Part shown: positions 26,631-43,813 of the stretch, one piece after another
How the letters are laid out: every line of letters starts with the position of its first letter
Numbering within the stretch: the stretch's first letter is position 1
NCBI GenBank assembly: GCA_021821365.1
Contig: JAKACN010000005.1
Span: forward strand, 1,734 to 53,661
Length of the DNA stretch: 51,928 nucleotides
Origin: Pseudomonadota bacterium
GTDB lineage: Bacteria > Pseudomonadota > Gammaproteobacteria > Burkholderiales > Burkholderiaceae_D
Reading direction: 5' to 3'
Position numbers and translations under genes: made by a program
The notes under the pieces: generated by a model
Seen by the model: only the letters and a program-made list of their open reading frames with translations
Databases searched by the model: none
What the model was told of the DNA's origin: nothing

Positions 26631-26825
26631 TCAACGGCGCGGCGGCTCGCCGGCGGCGGCCTCGCGCTGCGCTTCATCGTCCCCTGTCTCGGCGAGCTCG
26701 GGGGATTGCAATTGCGCGCGAAGATACTTGATCGGGGCCAGCGCGAGGACGATGATCAGCGCCCAGAACAGGATCACCGCAACCGATCCCAGCCAGTGCC
26801 AGCCTGCTCCATGATTCCACATCAT
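26631..26825 (-). CDS. Small single-TM membrane protein, 64 aa
   Basis: 'MMWNHGAGWHWLGSVAVILFWALIIVLALAPIKYLRAQL', resembling small SHOCT-like membrane proteins without the SHOCT domain; FNR-like box upstream. Confidence 0.6.
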   Translation of the reverse strand: MMWNHGAGWHWLGSVAVILFWALIIVLALAPIKYLRAQLQSPELAETGDDEAQREAAAGEPPRR

Positions 26826-26902: not shown

Positions 26903-26916
26903 TTGACTCAGGTCAA
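26903..26916. promoter_or_regulatory. FNR/Anr-like palindrome TTGACTCAGGTCAA
   Basis: Perfect dyad TTGAC-N4-GTCAA, close to consensus TTGAT-N4-ATCAA. Confidence 0.55.
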
Positions 26917-26953
26917 ACATGCCTGAACGGTGCGATGCCCATGACTGGCGACA

Positions 26954-27331
26954 TCATTGCGGCGGCCTGGCCATTCGCTCGCCTTCTTCGACCGCGTGCC
27001 TGAGCTGGTTGGCGAAATACGGTTTGTGCAGCACCGTGAATTCGAAATCCAGCTTGTCCGTAAGCAGGTAGCCGAAACCGGAGGAAAAAATGATCCTGAT
27101 CGACGGCGCGCTCGCCGTCATGATCTGCGCCAACTCAATGCCGGACATGCCGGGCAACTGCACGTCCGCGATCAGCGCATCGAAGCTGCGCCCGCGGGAG
27201 GCGGCGAGCGCATCTTCCGCGCACGATACGCCGTGCGGACGATGGCCGAGCTCTTCGAGCATGTCGCACAGAATCTGCAGGAAATCGCTGTTGTCTTCGA
27301 CGACAAGAATCCGCAGCGATGCGGCCGTCAT
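26954..27331 (-). CDS. Stand-alone response regulator receiver domain protein
   Basis: 'LRILVVEDNSDFLQILCDMLEELGHRPHGVSCAEDALAASRGRSFDALIADVQLPGMSGIELAQ'; no output domain. Start chosen at MTAASLRI. Confidence 0.85.
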   Translation of the reverse strand: MTAASLRILVVEDNSDFLQILCDMLEELGHRPHGVSCAEDALAASRGRSFDALIADVQLPGMSGIELAQIMTASAPSIRIIFSSGFGYLLTDKLDFEFTVLHKPYFANQLRHAVEEGERMARPPQ

Positions 27332-27569
27332 GCCGGCACACCGGAGACGGCGAGCGGCGCATGTTCGGCGCGGGTGGTGACTATCGGCGTGAATGGCGGC
27401 ATGGTATGCGTGTCTGATGATTGGAATGCGCGGCACGTATTCTCGCAAACCCGCCGCTGTCGACAAGGCGCACTGACCGGTTTCCAAACACGCTTTTGCG
27501 TTTGATCAAACTGCTTTGCGGCACGTGAAACCGGAGCCGCACGCATGCGTGCGACTTTTCTGTTTTTCG

Positions 27570-27583
27570 TTGACTCAGATCAA
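27570..27583. promoter_or_regulatory. FNR/Anr-like box TTGACTCAGATCAA
   Basis: One mismatch to TTGAT-N4-ATCAA; about 98 bp upstream of the phbB-like start. Confidence 0.6.
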
Positions 27584-27680
27584 CGAGAACCCATGCATCG
27601 CCACAGCGCATCGTCTACCCTGAATGAAGCTGGAACGTGTCGGCTGCACTATCCATCCGGCCGAAAGCAGGGGACCGATC

Positions 27681-28403
27681 ATGAAGCGGACTGCCATTGT
27701 CACCGGGGGCACACGCGGCCTCGGCAAGGCAATTTCCATTGCGCTGCAGGCGCAAGGCTACGATGTTGCCGCAGTCTATTGCAGCAATGTGGGCGCGGCA
27801 CAGGCGTTCAGCACCGCCACCGGCATCCGCTCGTACAAATGGGATGTGTCCGATTACGAGGCCTGCCGCGAAGGCATCGCCGCCATCGAGAAAGACCTCG
27901 GCCCGACCGATATCCTGATCAACAATGCCGGCATCACCAGCGACGCCATCCTGCATCGCATGACGCCGGAGCAATGGTGGCGCGTGATCAACAACGACCT
28001 CGGTTCGGTGTTCAACATGTGCCGCAACATCATTGGCGGCATGCGCGAACGCGGCTTCGGTCGCATCGTCAACATCAGTTCCGTCAACGGCCAGAAAGGG
28101 CAGGCCGGCCAGACCAATTATGCGGCAGCCAAGGCAGGCATCCTCGGCTTCACCCGTTCGCTGGCGCTGGAAGGCGCGCGCAAGAACATCACGGTGAATG
28201 CGGTGGCACCCGGCTACTGCGATACGGACATGGTGGCCGCAGTCCCGCCGGACACGCTCAAGACCATCGTTGCGGGCATCCCGGTCGGGCGGCTCGGCAC
28301 GCCGGAAGACATCGCGCGCGTGGTGGCATTCCTGGCGAGCGCGGAAGCGGGCTTCATCAATGGCGCAACATTCTCGGTGAACGGAGGGCAGTACATGATT
28401 TAG
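27681..28403 (+). CDS. phbB: Acetoacetyl-CoA reductase (SDR family)
   Basis: 'AIVTGGTRGLGKAISIAL', 'ILINNAGITSDAILHRMTPEQWWRVINNDLGSVFNMCRNIIGGMRERGFGRIVNISSVNGQKGQAGQTNYAAAKAGILGFTRSLA'. Confidence 0.88.
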   Translation: MKRTAIVTGGTRGLGKAISIALQAQGYDVAAVYCSNVGAAQAFSTATGIRSYKWDVSDYEACREGIAAIEKDLGPTDILINNAGITSDAILHRMTPEQWWRVINNDLGSVFNMCRNIIGGMRERGFGRIVNISSVNGQKGQAGQTNYAAAKAGILGFTRSLALEGARKNITVNAVAPGYCDTDMVAAVPPDTLKTIVAGIPVGRLGTPEDIARVVAFLASAEAGFINGATFSVNGGQYMI

Positions 28404-28460
28404 TCCGGGCGAGGCATGCGCGCAGCAGCCCGGCGATTTCACGCAAGGAAGGAGAACGTC

Positions 28461-28907
28461 ATGTTCAAGACCATCCTGGTGCCGACCGACGGCTCGACAC
28501 TGGCCGAACAAGCCATCCACGAAGCCGTCCTGTTTGCGAAGGAGAGCGACGGCTATGTGGTCGGCCTGTCCGTGGCCGAGCCCTATCCGTTCTCTCCCAT
28601 GGCCGAAAGCAGCATGACGCAGGAATGCGCGCATTACGAGGACCGCATGATGGAGCGCGCGCGGCGCAACGTGCAGAAGGTGGCCGAGGAGGCCAGGGCC
28701 ATGAAGGTGCCTTGCGAGACCGTGGTCGAGCAATCATTCTCGCCCTATGAGAAGATCATCGATACCGCGCGCAACATGAGCTGCGATGTGATTTTCATGG
28801 CATCGCATGGGCGCAAGGGCTTGAGCGAGTTGCTGCTCGGCAGCGAAACGCAGAAGGTGCTGGCGCACTCGACCATTCCGGTCCTGGTGATCCGCCAGCA
28901 TACGTAA
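28461..28907 (+). CDS. Universal stress protein (UspA family)
   Basis: 'MFKTILVPTDGSTLAEQAIHEAVLFAKE', 'DVIFMASHGRKGLSELLLGSETQKVLAHSTIPVLVIR'. Confidence 0.95.
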   Translation: MFKTILVPTDGSTLAEQAIHEAVLFAKESDGYVVGLSVAEPYPFSPMAESSMTQECAHYEDRMMERARRNVQKVAEEARAMKVPCETVVEQSFSPYEKIIDTARNMSCDVIFMASHGRKGLSELLLGSETQKVLAHSTIPVLVIRQHT

Positions 28908-28937
28908 ACCAGAATCAGACAGCTACGAAAGGCGATC

Positions 28938-29393
28938 ATGTTCAAGAAAATCCTGATACCGACCGACGGCTCCACGCTGGCAACGACAGCAGCGCAGGCC
29001 GGGGTCGAATTCGCAAAGCAATGCCAGGCCGAAGTGGTGGGCGCGTTCGTCGCGCCCGATTACCACTATCCGATCGGCGTGGAGATCATTCCGCCCAGCT
29101 ATCCGACCGAAGAAGAATACAAGGCATCGATCGCGCGCACCGGCGAAGCCTATCTTGACGGCGTGCGGAAGGCAGCGGCGGAAGCCGGATTGAAATACGC
29201 CAGCGTCGTCGCGTATTCCGAGCAGACGGCGCAAAAGATCGTGGAGATCGCGCAGCAGGAACAATGCGATCTGATCTTCATCGGCTCGCATGGCCGCAGC
29301 GGCCTCGGGCAATTGCTGCTCGGCAGCGTCACCAGCAAGGTGCTCGCGCTGTGCGACATCCCTGTGTTCGTCTATCGCATGAAGAAGACCTGA
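28938..29393 (+). CDS. Universal stress protein (UspA family)
   Basis: 'MFKKILIPTDGSTLATTAAQAGVEFAKQ', 'DLIFIGSHGRSGLGQLLLGSVTSKVLALCDIPVFVYR'. Confidence 0.95.
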   Translation: MFKKILIPTDGSTLATTAAQAGVEFAKQCQAEVVGAFVAPDYHYPIGVEIIPPSYPTEEEYKASIARTGEAYLDGVRKAAAEAGLKYASVVAYSEQTAQKIVEIAQQEQCDLIFIGSHGRSGLGQLLLGSVTSKVLALCDIPVFVYRMKKT

Positions 29394-29408
29394 CATAGAA
29401 AGTCTGAC

Positions 29409-30260
29409 ATGTCTTACAGAACGGTTCTCGTGCATGTCGATGCCTCGCGGCACGCACACACGCGCGTCGGTATTGCGGCCGCGATCGCGGCGCAGCAGGA
29501 GGCCCATCTCGTCGGCGCCGCGACCAGCGGCGTTTCCAGGACCATCTACCAGACAAGCCTGATCGACGAAGCCGCCCCGCACGCGGCACAGCATCTTGCG
29601 CTGCATCTCGATGCCTTGCGCGCGCGGGCGGGCAAGGCGCTGCTGGAATTCGAAAGCCAGGCGCGCGGCATGGAGGTCCGTTCATTCGAAAGCATGCTGA
29701 TCGACGACGAGGCCGGGGCCGGCATCTGCCTGCGGGCGCGTTACAGCGACCTGGTCGTCATCGGCCAATTCGACCCGGACGAACCCTCGCCGGTCGTGAT
29801 GCCCGACTTTCCCGAGTTCGTGGTCCTGAATTCGGGACGGCCGGTCCTCATCGTTCCCCATGCGGGTCGCCTCGACGTGCCGGGCCGGCGCATCGTCGTC
29901 GCATGGGATGCCGGCGTCAGTGCCACCCGCGCGCTGGTGAATGCGCTGCCGATGCTCAAGCACGCGCAGGCAGTGGACGTGGTCGTGTTCAATCCCGGTG
30001 CCGATGGCAAGGCGCACGGCGAACAGCCGGGGGCGGACATTGCGCTTTACCTCGCGCGCCATGGCGTGCGCGTCAACGTGGTCCCGCAGCGGACCGAGGC
30101 CGACATCGGCGAAGCGCTGCTGTCGCTGGCCGCCGACATCGGCGCGGACCTGCTGGTGATGGGCGGCTACGGCCATTCCCGCTTCCGCGAGTTGCTGCTG
30201 GGCGGCGTGACACGTACCGTCCTGCAATCCATGACGATCCCCGTGCTGATGTCGGGATGA
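29409..30260 (+). CDS. Universal stress protein, two-domain type
   Basis: 'MSYRTVLVHVDASRHAHTRVGIAAAIAAQQEAHLVGAA' and C-terminal 'ADLLVMGGYGHSRFRELLLGGVTRTVLQSMTIPVLMSG'. Confidence 0.92.
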   Translation: MSYRTVLVHVDASRHAHTRVGIAAAIAAQQEAHLVGAATSGVSRTIYQTSLIDEAAPHAAQHLALHLDALRARAGKALLEFESQARGMEVRSFESMLIDDEAGAGICLRARYSDLVVIGQFDPDEPSPVVMPDFPEFVVLNSGRPVLIVPHAGRLDVPGRRIVVAWDAGVSATRALVNALPMLKHAQAVDVVVFNPGADGKAHGEQPGADIALYLARHGVRVNVVPQRTEADIGEALLSLAADIGADLLVMGGYGHSRFRELLLGGVTRTVLQSMTIPVLMSG

Positions 30261-30317
30261 TGCCGGACTGATGTCAGGCGAGATGCACGCCGTTCCCTTC
30301 GACGCTTCCTGCAATCT

Positions 30318-30331
30318 TTGATGTCCGTCAA
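30318..30331. promoter_or_regulatory. FNR/Anr-like box TTGATGTCCGTCAA
   Basis: One mismatch to TTGAT-N4-ATCAA; TAGCAT at 30354-30359 is placed as a -10 would be for a class II activator site. Confidence 0.55.
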
Positions 30332-30540
30332 TCAATTTTCATCCGGCGCTCCGTAGCATCGGTGGGGAGTGCTTTCCAATCGATTCGCACCGGCCTTGGT
30401 GAGATAATGAATCGAAAGGATCAACGCGGGATTGTTCACCACAGGCTCCAGGCGGACTGTTGGAATACGTTGCGAGCGGGCCGGTACCTTGCGCGCAATC
30501 GTCTTTCAAAAGCCTGCCAGCTTTTCGAAAGGGAATTGCC

Positions 30541-32589
30541 ATGCCGTACAGTACCGAAGCCATCCGAACCATCGCCCTGCTCGGGCATACCGCCTCCGGC
30601 AAAACGAGCGTCGCTGAAGCGCTGTTGCACAAGGTGGGCATGATCCCGGGTCAGGGCAGTCTCGAACGCGGCAGCACCGTCTGCGACTACGATCCGCTCG
30701 AACGCAAATACCAGCATTCGCTTTACTCCGCTATCGTCCACCTGGACCATCTCGATACGCGCATCCACATGATCGATACGCCCGGCTTTCCGGATTTCGC
30801 CGGGCAGGCGATCGGCGCGCTGCCCGCCGTGGAAACCGCGGCGGTGGTGATCAACGCGCAATCCGGCATCGAGATGATGACCACGCGCATGATGGAGATG
30901 GCGCAGCAGCGCAACATGTGCCGCATGATCATCGTCAACAAGATCGATGCGGAAAACATTGACCTGCCCGGCCTGGTGATGCGCATCCAGGAAACCTTCG
31001 GCAAGGAATGCCTGCCGATCAACCTGCCCGCGGGCGGCGGCACGAAAGTGGTCGACTGCTTTTTCAATCCGGCCGGCGAATCCGATTTCTCCTCGGTGGC
31101 GGAAGCGCATCGCGCGCTGGTCGACCAGGTAGTGGAAGTCGACGCCGACCTGATGTCGCTCTATCTCGAGCAAGGCGAGATCGCGCCCGAGCAATTGCAT
31201 GCGCCCTTCGAGCAGGCGCTGCGCGAAGGCCACCTGGTGCCGATCTGCTTCGTTTCGGCGCGCAACGGCGCGGGCATCGGCGAACTGCTCGATGTGTTCG
31301 TGAAGCTGATGCCCAATCCCTCCGAAGGCAATCCGCCGCTGTTCTATCGCGACGATGTGAATGCGCCCGACCAGCGCGCCGAAATCCATGCCGTCACCGA
31401 TCCGGACAAGCACGTGCTCGCGCACGTGTTCAAGATCGCGGTAGATCCGTATGTCGGCAAGCTGTCGGTGTTCCGCATCCACCAGGGCACCGTGCGGCGC
31501 GACAGCCAGCTGTACATCGGCGATGCGCGCAAGCCGTTCAAGGTCGCGCACCTGTACCTCCTGCAGGGCAAGGAGCAGGTCGAAGTGCCGGAAGGCGTGC
31601 CGGGTGACATCTGCGCGGTGGCGAAGGTCGAGGACATCGCGTTCGATGCGGTGCTGCACGATGCGGCCGAAGACGACCACATCCATCTCAAGCCGCTGCC
31701 TTTCCCGCTGCCGATCTTCGGCCTGACCATCGAACCGAAGAAACGCGGCGACGAACAGCGCATGTGGGAAATCCTGAACAAGCTCACCGCCGAAGATCCC
31801 TGCCTGAAAGTCGAACACCAGGTCAGCACCAACGAAACCGTGCTGCTCGGCCTGGGCGAGTTGCACCTGCGCGCGGCGCTGGAACGCATGATGGACGTGT
31901 ACAAGATCGAAGTCTCCACCCGTCCGCCGAAGATCGCGTATCGCGAAACGATCGCCGGCCGTGCGGAAGGCCATCACCGCCACAAGAAGCAGAGCGGCGG
32001 CGCCGGACAATTCGGCGAAGTGTTCCTGCGCGTCGAGCCGCTGCCGCGCGGCGAAGGCTTCCAGTTCGTCGATGCGGTCAAGGGCGGCGTGATTCCCGGC
32101 CAGTTCATTCCCGCCGTGGAGAAGGGCATACGCCAGGTACTGGATGCAGGCCCGCTGGCCGGCTTCCCGATGCAGGATGTGCGCGTCACCGTGTACGACG
32201 GCAAGAGCCATCCGGTCGATTCCAAGGAAGTCGCTTTCGCCACGGCCGGCCGCAAGGCATTCATCGACGCGGTCCTCAAGGCACGTCCGATGGTGCTGGA
32301 GCCGATCGTCAATGTCGAGATCGTCACGCCGGAAGAAAACATGGGCGACATCACCGGCGACCTGTCCTCCAAGCGCGGGCAGGTGAGCGGCATGCAGACG
32401 GCGCAGGCCGGCACGGTGGTCGTGACGGGTCAGGTGCCGCTGTCGGAACTCAACGGCTACCAATCGCGCCTGCATTCGACCACGGGCGGGCGCGGCAGCT
32501 ATACCGTGGAGTTCAGCCATTACGACCCGGTGCCGCCGACGGTGCAGCAGCGGCTGGCGGGCCAGTACAAGGCGGCGCCGGAGGAGTGA
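30541..32589 (+). CDS. Elongation factor G-like protein (EF-G paralogue)
   Basis: 'IALLGHTASGKTSVAEALL', 'IHMIDTPGFPDF', 'IIVNKIDAEN', 'GLGELHLRAALERMMDVYKIEVSTRPPKIAYRETI', 'VTPEENMGDITGDLSSKRGQVSGM'; lacks the canonical RGITI switch I motif. Confidence 0.9.
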   Translation: MPYSTEAIRTIALLGHTASGKTSVAEALLHKVGMIPGQGSLERGSTVCDYDPLERKYQHSLYSAIVHLDHLDTRIHMIDTPGFPDFAGQAIGALPAVETAAVVINAQSGIEMMTTRMMEMAQQRNMCRMIIVNKIDAENIDLPGLVMRIQETFGKECLPINLPAGGGTKVVDCFFNPAGESDFSSVAEAHRALVDQVVEVDADLMSLYLEQGEIAPEQLHAPFEQALREGHLVPICFVSARNGAGIGELLDVFVKLMPNPSEGNPPLFYRDDVNAPDQRAEIHAVTDPDKHVLAHVFKIAVDPYVGKLSVFRIHQGTVRRDSQLYIGDARKPFKVAHLYLLQGKEQVEVPEGVPGDICAVAKVEDIAFDAVLHDAAEDDHIHLKPLPFPLPIFGLTIEPKKRGDEQRMWEILNKLTAEDPCLKVEHQVSTNETVLLGLGELHLRAALERMMDVYKIEVSTRPPKIAYRETIAGRAEGHHRHKKQSGGAGQFGEVFLRVEPLPRGEGFQFVDAVKGGVIPGQFIPAVEKGIRQVLDAGPLAGFPMQDVRVTVYDGKSHPVDSKEVAFATAGRKAFIDAVLKARPMVLEPIVNVEIVTPEENMGDITGDLSSKRGQVSGMQTAQAGTVVVTGQVPLSELNGYQSRLHSTTGGRGSYTVEFSHYDPVPPTVQQRLAGQYKAAPEE

Positions 32590-40375: not shown

Positions 40376-40527
40376 GTGTATTGCCGGGCGCTGAAATATT
40401 TGCATTGGCGTCACGGTGATGCGACTGGCAAGTCTGGGTAATGCAACTTGAATTGATAGGCGATAAAGCCTCGACCTGACAATAGCGCGAGGATTGCTTG
40501 CAAAGATGCAAAACCAGAAAGATTGCA

Positions 40528-41148
40528 ATGGCAATCGCGCTTCCATTCTTTGCTGCGATGTTTGTGGGCTTGTTGAGTGGTATAGCTACGCCACGGATGC
40601 CGACCAACATATTTTCGCATTGCACGCCAATGAACTTGCCTGTGGAGCACATCACACCTCGCCCTACCGCATACAGTGAATTTTGCGATTCTCATCCAGG
40701 GGATTGCGACATGACCGGAGCGCCAGTCATTGAACTGACTAGCGATGCGCAAGCGGCATTGGACAAGGTCAATCGCGACGTGAATGCCGAATTCCGTCTG
40801 ACCGACGATCTTGAATGGCGGGGAAAGGAAGAGGAATGGAACTATCCTTCGCTAGGAACGGGAGATTGCGAGGATCTGGCACTTGAGAAAAGGAGAAGAC
40901 TGGTTAACCTGGGAGTACCGCGTGCGGCGATGACAATCGGCGTCGTGTTCCACAAGAAATTCAAATCTCCTCATGCCATGCTTTTCGTGGAGACCAATGA
41001 CGGTACGATCGTATTGGATAGCCCGCAGAGCGATTTGCTCTGCTGGGATAAAGCGCCATACAACTATGAGAGCCGTGAACGCCCTGACGGTCAATGGGAC
41101 CGCTTCGATCAGCGCCTGTGGGAGTGGTGGCCTTTTCGCGCCCGATAG
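40528..41148 (+). CDS. Transglutaminase-like cysteine protease (BTLCP/LapG family)
   Basis: 'EFCDSHPGDCDMTGAPVIELT', 'YPSLGTGDCEDLALEKRRRLVNLGVP', 'SPHAMLFVETNDGTIVLDS' supply Cys, His, Asp. Confidence 0.85.
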   Translation: MAIALPFFAAMFVGLLSGIATPRMPTNIFSHCTPMNLPVEHITPRPTAYSEFCDSHPGDCDMTGAPVIELTSDAQAALDKVNRDVNAEFRLTDDLEWRGKEEEWNYPSLGTGDCEDLALEKRRRLVNLGVPRAAMTIGVVFHKKFKSPHAMLFVETNDGTIVLDSPQSDLLCWDKAPYNYESRERPDGQWDRFDQRLWEWWPFRAR

Positions 41149-41765
41149 GTATTCACATCGAGGGTCCTGAAAAAATTGAACCACTTTACTCCCTTCACCA
41201 CCAGTTCATGATCCAGGTTCACTGAGAACTTCCCCATCCAGCACCTTGCGAATGAAAATCTGGCCGTTTTCCGGCCTGAGAAAGTGTCGGTAAGCTTGTG
41301 CACCGAATCCCAATGAGTCGAATAAGTATAAAGAAGCGGCATGCACTTGCCAGTCAGTATCGATAGGATAATGCCGGAGAATTTCCTTTCTCTGTGCGAG
41401 CGTCATCGTTGAAAAAAGCGTTACGCGGAACAATCGCATATCGGCACGCTGGCCGACTATCAATTTAATTCAGATTGCCTGACGCATCATTCAGTGGGTT
41501 TGAGTTTTGTCAAGCATGATCGATGACATCCGTCCAGGGATGCGGAGGGTAGATGATTTGACGCCGCGCAGCGAAACCGGAAGTCTTTGAACAGGAAGTC
41601 TGCAGTTTTCAAGACAACGGCGCAGGACGAACCTTGAACGCAAGCAAGAAAAGCAGCGACCCTGTGTTCGTCAATCGACTGGTATTGTCAGCTGGCGCTG
41701 ACCGCCTGGTCCGTTCCCATAACGATCCCGGCAGGTGGAGATCAGGTGTGTGGCTGACCACCGGT

Positions 41766-42152
41766 TTATTCTCGCGGCTTTCCCGCAATCTTGCGGCGAT
41801 ACGCATTCATGCTCTGCTCGTCGCGCAATCTGGTGTACTCCTTCCTCACCCGGTAACTCAGCCACACCATGAAGATGAAAGGGCCGACCAGGAAGGCAAG
41901 TGACGCTCCCCACACGGCACCGGCCTTGAGCGCGAGCACCCGTCCGCCCGGTGCGATGAATGCGGTCGACCCGGCCGCAAGGAACGCATCGCCCAGCGCT
42001 TTGGCAAGTGCGCTGCCGGGAGCGTAATACACCATCAAACCCAGTAAAAACCCGATGGACAGCATCGGCAGTGCGATGAACGCCGCCGCACGCATCATGC
42101 GCCGTTTCGACGGCACCAACGTGGAAAAATTTATTTGATCTTCAGGTTTCAT
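41766..42152 (-). CDS. Hypothetical two-TM membrane protein
   Basis: MKPEDQINFSTLVPSKRRMMRAAAFIALPMLSIGFLLGLMVYYAPGSALAKAL...; start moved from ORF track 42260. Confidence 0.6.
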   Translation of the reverse strand: MKPEDQINFSTLVPSKRRMMRAAAFIALPMLSIGFLLGLMVYYAPGSALAKALGDAFLAAGSTAFIAPGGRVLALKAGAVWGASLAFLVGPFIFMVWLSYRVRKEYTRLRDEQSMNAYRRKIAGKPRE

Positions 42153-42330
42153 GAGACGCTCATTGCCGATCCCGGATGGGACCATTAAACGTGCAGGAAA
42201 ATTTCCTTTGCATCCGCAAATGCTGGCACAAGGCGCGAAACATTGTCCATGAAAATCCATTCAGGAATTGACCATATTGGCGGCGGGCCTGCGCGAGCAA
42301 CTAACGCAGAGTCAATCCGCGCGGCGTTGA

Positions 42331-43098: not shown

Positions 43099-43227
43099 TG
43101 TTAACTTTTCTCGTGGTGGGTTTGCAAGCCGCAGTTCTGGCGGCACGAACGTAGCGTATTGCTTCCCGCCTTGTTTGTGCAACCGGTAGCGGCCGATGTT
43201 TTTGCGGTTTTTGTTTACGTTGATGTT

Positions 43228-43277
43228 GATATATACAAATAGTAGTAGTGTTAACGCAGGGCGCTGCCTGTGGATAA
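43228..43277. repeat. AT-rich repeat copy 1 (TTGATATATACAAATAGT...GTTAAC...TGTGGATAA)
   Basis: Near-identical to copy 2 starting near 43761. Confidence 0.75.
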
Positions 43278-43760: not shown

Positions 43761-43813
43761 TTGATATATACAAATAGTGATAGTTGTTAACACTGCCTCC
43801 AATCTGGGGATAA
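43761..43813. repeat. AT-rich repeat copy 2 (TTGATATATACAAATAGT...GTTAAC...TGGGGATAA)
   Basis: Aligns with copy 1 with few changes. Confidence 0.75.

Follow-up and report, generated by a model that had tools for sequence, protein, structure and literature searches.

FNR-type boxes ahead of a small membrane-protein gene, a phaB-usp operon and an EF-G paralogue suggest low-oxygen control in a relative of Herbaspirillum

We analysed a 51,928-nt stretch of a Burkholderiales draft genome (GenBank assembly GCA_021821365.1, contig JAKACN010000005.1, positions 1,734 to 53,661; hereafter, the window), in which three palindromes of the FNR type precede a gene for a small membrane protein, an operon of one phaB-like and three universal stress protein (Usp) genes, and a gene for a paralogue of the elongation factor EF-G. 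We consider it probable, at roughly 80%, that low oxygen switches on the three promoters of the block through an FNR-type dimer, for which the likeliest candidate is the iron-sulphur FNR encoded on contig C106 of the same genome. Observed directly are the sites themselves, their conservation, their spacing to -10 elements, the operon layout and the cysteines of the regulator.

A sequence-only reading of this DNA had placed three palindromes, one or two changes away from TTGAT-N4-ATCAA, upstream of the minus-strand membrane-protein gene, the phbB-like/usp run and the EF-G-like gene, and both letters and positions were verified: TTGACTCAGGTCAA at 26903-26916 (two mismatches), TTGACTCAGATCAA at 27570-27583 on the plus strand (one mismatch) and TTGATGTCCGTCAA at 30318-30331, also on the plus strand (one mismatch). 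All three are located in intergenic spacers, 77 nt ahead of the gene for the 64-aa membrane protein on the minus strand (on which the first box reads TTGACCTGAGTCAA), 97 nt ahead of the phaB-like ATG at 27681 and 209 nt ahead of the EF-G-like ATG at 30541. When the box was scored as an exact TTGAY-N4-RTCAA (TTGAYNNNNRTCAA), a loosened form of the same motif, these three sites were the only matches in the window, against 0.06 expected (none of 100 shuffles reached three). The whole 5.27-Mb draft genome contains 74 such sites, as opposed to 8 for a reversed-pattern control.

In the class II geometry of FNR, the box is centred at -41.5, and hence the -10 element falls about 22 nt past the box. 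This spacing, proposed earlier for the first and third boxes, was found for both: box 26903 is followed on the minus strand by TAAAAC (26879-26874) at a gap of 23 nt, and box 30318 is followed on the plus strand by TAGCAT (30354-30359) at a gap of 22 nt. Box 27570 is followed by TACCCT (27616-27621, plus strand) at a gap of 32 nt. We then considered TAnnnT hexamers downstream of 50 distinct sites of the 74, taken in both orientations (100 box-orientations); such hexamers peak at gaps of 21-23, with 18 occurrences versus roughly one per other position. A promoter scan of the block found no complete sigma-70 promoter, as would be expected of promoters whose -35 element is replaced by an activator.

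Conservation in related genomes was a test that the sequence-only reading had set itself, and the boxes came through it. Herbaspirillum sp. ST 5-3 (L066; Oxalobacteraceae, and the same genus according to the genome set) carries this gene set in unchanged order, except for one extra segment of ~3 kb. The three boxes are identical there, at 42 of 42 letters and in the same slots, while the four-fold degenerate sites of the neighbouring genes are 65-74% identical, and the distances from box to -10 element are unchanged (23, 32 and 22). First, box 26903 is exact both in the window and at L066/L251, and its TAAAAC lies in the invariant run TTCTGTTTTACCTTAT, the same hexamer recurring in most orthologues. 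Second, box 27570 lies inside an invariant 21-nt run, TTTCGTTGACTCAGATCAACG, followed in the alignment by TACTCT at the distance of TACCCT in the window; this box was placed in ST 5-3 via a short upstream alignment, whereas an automatic one over the full region upstream of phaB put it in the wrong position. Third, box 30318 lies inside an invariant 22-nt run (L066/L147), and its TAGCAT lies in the invariant run GGCGCTCCGTAGCATC. For boxes 27570 and 30318, the depth of conservation is two species. A 14-mer identical to box 27570 precedes a tandem Usp gene beside a phaB-like gene in another Burkholderiales genome (L221/L262). The extra segment of ST 5-3 separates the response regulator from phaB and contains a PAS-GGDEF-EAL gene (L066:2242-4896; named from its sequence, not by domain search), which is absent from the window and has its own FNR-type box at L066:4871.

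The gene context is the third element of the case. Pfam and NCBIfam confirmed the identities suggested for the phbB-like gene, the three Usp genes and the EF-G paralogue. The first of these encodes a PhaB-type acetoacetyl-CoA reductase of the SDR family (27681-28403; TIGR01829, 328 bits versus a cut-off of 302) and is followed by Usp genes at 28461-28907 (PF00582, E 1e-30) and 28938-29393 (PF00582, E 8e-30) and by a gene for a 283-aa tandem-domain Usp at 29409-30260 (two PF00582 stretches). Because these four plus-strand genes are co-directional, with gaps of 57, 30 and 15 nt, one operon is the natural reading. We found 22 Usp domains in ~18 genes of the genome, and exact boxes lie ~80-140 nt before Usp genes on contigs C224, C136, C41, C8 and C211, which together with the window operon makes six Usp loci. 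In other genomes, an exact box lies no more than 150 nt ahead of the start codon in 34 of 79 relatives of the first Usp (0.67 expected), although Janthinobacterium strains that are closely related to one another, and hence not independent, supply many of the 34. The box mostly starts 66-70 nt upstream of these genes, with TAnnnT at a gap of 22 in 27 of them and of 21 in 5. There is thus strong evidence, from sequence comparison, for a putative Usp promoter rule across Oxalobacteraceae, consisting of a box, 22 nt and a -10 element. On contig C136 (G000:C136:6842-8051; L175), a perfect box with TACATT at a gap of 22 precedes a Usp gene and, after it, a gene for a CRP/FNR-type regulator. In Burkholderia cenocepacia H111, a uspA gene is located upstream of anr2 (PMC9104464).

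What, then, weighs against activation of all three promoters by an oxygen-sensing FNR? We gather four points here. The first is that box 27570 deviates from the class II optimum, its gap of 32 being about ten bases, or one helical turn, too long. The genome-wide counts have a secondary bump of TAnnnT hexamers at gaps of 31-33 (7 occurrences). Boxes on contig C224 and at L015 (contig C45) have a -10 element at a gap of 32-33, as the phaB box does, and this suggests that FNR also accepts another spacing, longer by about one helical turn.

The second point is that other FNR-family regulators encoded in this genome may share the boxes. Thirteen CRP/FNR-type helix-turn-helix proteins score above the Pfam cut-off. 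The sequence-only reading depended on an FNR/Anr homologue being encoded, and one was found on contig C106: a full Fe-S FNR, with an N-terminal CX2CX5C motif (CSACSMHQLC), a fourth cysteine in EVCEIPF, the recognition helix GLTIESISR and FNR as its best PDB match (2e-60). Further FNR-family proteins have recognition helices of the E-x-x-S-R type: two (L016 and L017) have GLTLETVSR-type helices without the N-terminal cysteine motif, and two more (L019 and L021) have Dnr-like helices (TPEHFSR and TPETLSR). The L016 gene has a box upstream of itself. It is because FNR-family proteins with similar or Dnr-like helices are encoded that we infer the identity of the regulator and its signal. The boxes might accordingly be bound by a Dnr-like nitric-oxide sensor or by a cysteine-less FNR-like protein, and the signal might not be oxygen, or not oxygen only. 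We regard this as possible, if unlikely, given that the forms of the boxes in the window are near the FNR consensus and that two Usp promoters in the relative Herbaspirillum seropedicae are direct, oxygen-responsive targets of Fnr1/Fnr3 (PMC5934665).

The third point concerns the EF-G paralogue (30541-32589, plus strand; NF009891, 1050 bits). We rejected this protein as the canonical factor because the canonical profile TIGR00484 failed (485 versus a cut-off of 659), because its PGH motif has another residue at the place of the catalytic histidine (DTPGF) and because a further EF-G copy is present on contig C396. Among the 15 EF-G loci that we compared, the histidine of DTPGH is replaced by Phe, Tyr, Leu or Thr (mostly Phe or Tyr across the genus), and switch I, aligned to EF-G structures, is YQHSL-like rather than RGITI-like; GTP hydrolysis by the paralogue may be weaker or altered. 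Almost every genome sampled from the genus has the gene. The exact box precedes it at only two of the 15 loci and is absent at the 13 others examined; the two belong to close species, which leaves little time to test conservation. In addition, another -10-like element of the (G/C/A)ATAATG type is conserved upstream of the gene at most of the 15 loci, and the window has such a box-independent element as well (GATAAT, 30403-30408, plus strand). Because the box is found in two species only, EF-G was rejected as an ancestral FNR target; to judge from its distribution, the gene seems to have gained an FNR promoter on coming to adjoin the Usp block. Alternatively, FNR might act on the membrane-protein and phaB-usp promoters only, with the EF-G box incidental and EF-G transcribed from its own promoter. 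This we hold to be a minority possibility, since the two species agree without exception in the EF-G box, its 22-nt spacing and TAGCAT, although the rest of the spacer is poorly conserved, and direct activation of an EF-G gene by FnrL has a precedent in Rhodobacter (PMC4634722).

The fourth point is that three sites within 3.4 kb are unremarkable as a cluster, as 7% of random placements of the 74 genomic sites yield such a triplet somewhere, and we dropped clustering as an argument for function. The case for FNR activation of the three promoters rests on conservation, spacing and gene context. It is very improbable that the palindromes arose by chance or serve some unrelated regulator, a reading that the frequency of random triplets would allow and that the spacing peak, the enrichment, the conservation and the association with Usp genes contradict.

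The 64-aa protein behind box 26903 (26631-26825, minus strand) is a single-span membrane protein, related by sequence comparison to longer proteins with a SHOCT-like tail; it had no match in Pfam or NCBIfam. Its relatives at E<=1e-5 are restricted to the genus, at 8 of the 295 genomes of the family; within the genus, seven other genomes contain them. Upstream of these genes in the genus members checked, there is mostly a palindrome ~90-130 nt away, imperfect in several of them, followed by TAAAAC or TACAAC at a gap of 21-23. On this sequence comparison, the membrane-protein arrangement is the oldest of the three. Between boxes 26903 and 27570 lies a gene for a single-domain response regulator (26954-27331, minus strand; PF00072, E 4e-14), which the sequence-only reading did not list. 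This gene lacks a box of its own at the class II distance. A divergent role of box 27570 for it was rejected because there is no minus-strand -10 element at a gap of 21-23 in either the window or ST 5-3. Elsewhere in the window, the 14-mer TTGATATATACAAA occurs twice, at 43226-43239 and 43761-43774, ~535 bases apart and near genes of weaker codon bias (about 40500-42300).

Binding and activation by FNR, the oxygen signal and a role in physiology are what we infer, and they would combine as follows. With falling oxygen, the C106 FNR would bind the TTGAY-N4-RTCAA boxes, at about -41.5 at the membrane-protein and EF-G promoters and at about -51.5 at the phaB-usp-usp-usp operon, and the bound FNR would recruit RNA polymerase to promoters without a good -35 element. 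PhaB would then spend reducing power on a precursor of polyhydroxybutyrate (PHB), the three Usp proteins would serve dormancy and stress, and the small membrane protein and the extra EF-G would be raised simultaneously, a set of gene products that would fit a survival state. A further idea, that the EF-G paralogue is a slow or energy-sparing translocase put under FNR control with the Usp and PHB genes as a low-oxygen mode of translation, strikes us as doubtful.

The arrangement itself is already known, and the block in the window is a new example, as published work has already placed Usp, PHB and EF-G genes under FNR. In H. seropedicae, which belongs to the same bacterial family, chromatin immunoprecipitation sequencing and RNA sequencing identified uspA_1 and uspA_2 as direct, activated and oxygen-responsive targets of Fnr1/Fnr3 (PMC5934665), and Fnr is needed for full PHB production (PMC5862806); Usp genes as direct FNR targets and PHB metabolism under Fnr are thus the points of likeness. 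We found no mention of a phaB-usp-usp-usp operon or of an EF-G paralogue in these two accounts, and H. seropedicae has three Fnr orthologs, whereas the genome of the window has one clear four-cysteine FNR. In Rhodobacter, FnrL directly activates uspA and the EF-G gene fusA (RSP2247/RCC01495) through the same kind of box (PMC4634722). Rhodobacter, however, belongs to the Alphaproteobacteria, and the likeness holds at the level of EF-G genes in general. Usp genes of Pseudomonas aeruginosa are activated at low oxygen by the FNR homologue Anr, as stated in PMC6127331, an account that makes no link to phaB or EF-G.

The low-oxygen-activated (lxa) locus of B. cenocepacia comprises 50 genes, including BCAM0276 to BCAM0319, is induced by low oxygen, and contains phbB (BCAM0296) and Usp genes of single and tandem size (BCAM0290, 0291, 0292 and 0294) (PMC6127331, PMC9733578). 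Genes of the Usp and phbB families are present in our block too, for which low-oxygen induction is predicted. Whereas the lxa locus runs to about 50 genes, the block has 6 that are box-linked, and neither a small heat shock protein nor a phosphotransacetylase nor a metallo-beta-lactamase is encoded beside it. The gene order also differs, being usp, tandem usp, usp, tandem usp, phbB, pta, adh and metallo-beta-lactamase in lxa and phaB, usp, usp, tandem usp and EF-G in the window. An lxa-like cluster in the Burkholderiales genome mentioned above (L262) reads usp, tandem usp, usp, tandem usp, a box identical to 27570, a phaB-like gene and a beta-CASP metallo-beta-lactamase. We dropped orthology of PhaB to such clusters, because an identity of 48% is no higher than that to many other PhaB-type proteins (about 50-54%). 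A second PhaB in the genome, on contig C23, is 72% identical to that of the window; its gene and a pyruvate:ferredoxin oxidoreductase operon are divergent, and the spacer that separates the two holds two boxes (C23:4096 and 4167). Behind a third box on this contig (29789) lies an operon for beta-CASP nuclease, thymidine-phosphorylase-like, PRPP-synthetase-like and AAA proteins, and the C23 region (L162, L194, L195) looks like a larger low-oxygen locus. Because boxed counterparts of the lxa phbB and metallo-beta-lactamase are on C23, the genes of the lxa type occupy two or more locations in this genome. Of the two terms in the earlier proposal of a compact homologous or analogous regulon, the second therefore suits the block better, as it resembles the lxa locus in box type and, in part, in gene families but not in synteny, and the counterparts are on C23.

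If true, the regulation proposed here overturns nothing, and it would be useful for annotation and for the choice of test promoters. It extends to a relative the link between FNR, Usp and PHB that has been shown experimentally in one Herbaspirillum species, and provides a clean sequence rule for the Usp promoters of Oxalobacteraceae (box, 22 nt, -10 element). It also points to the EF-G paralogue as a likely low-oxygen gene, through which translation would be linked to the response to oxygen.

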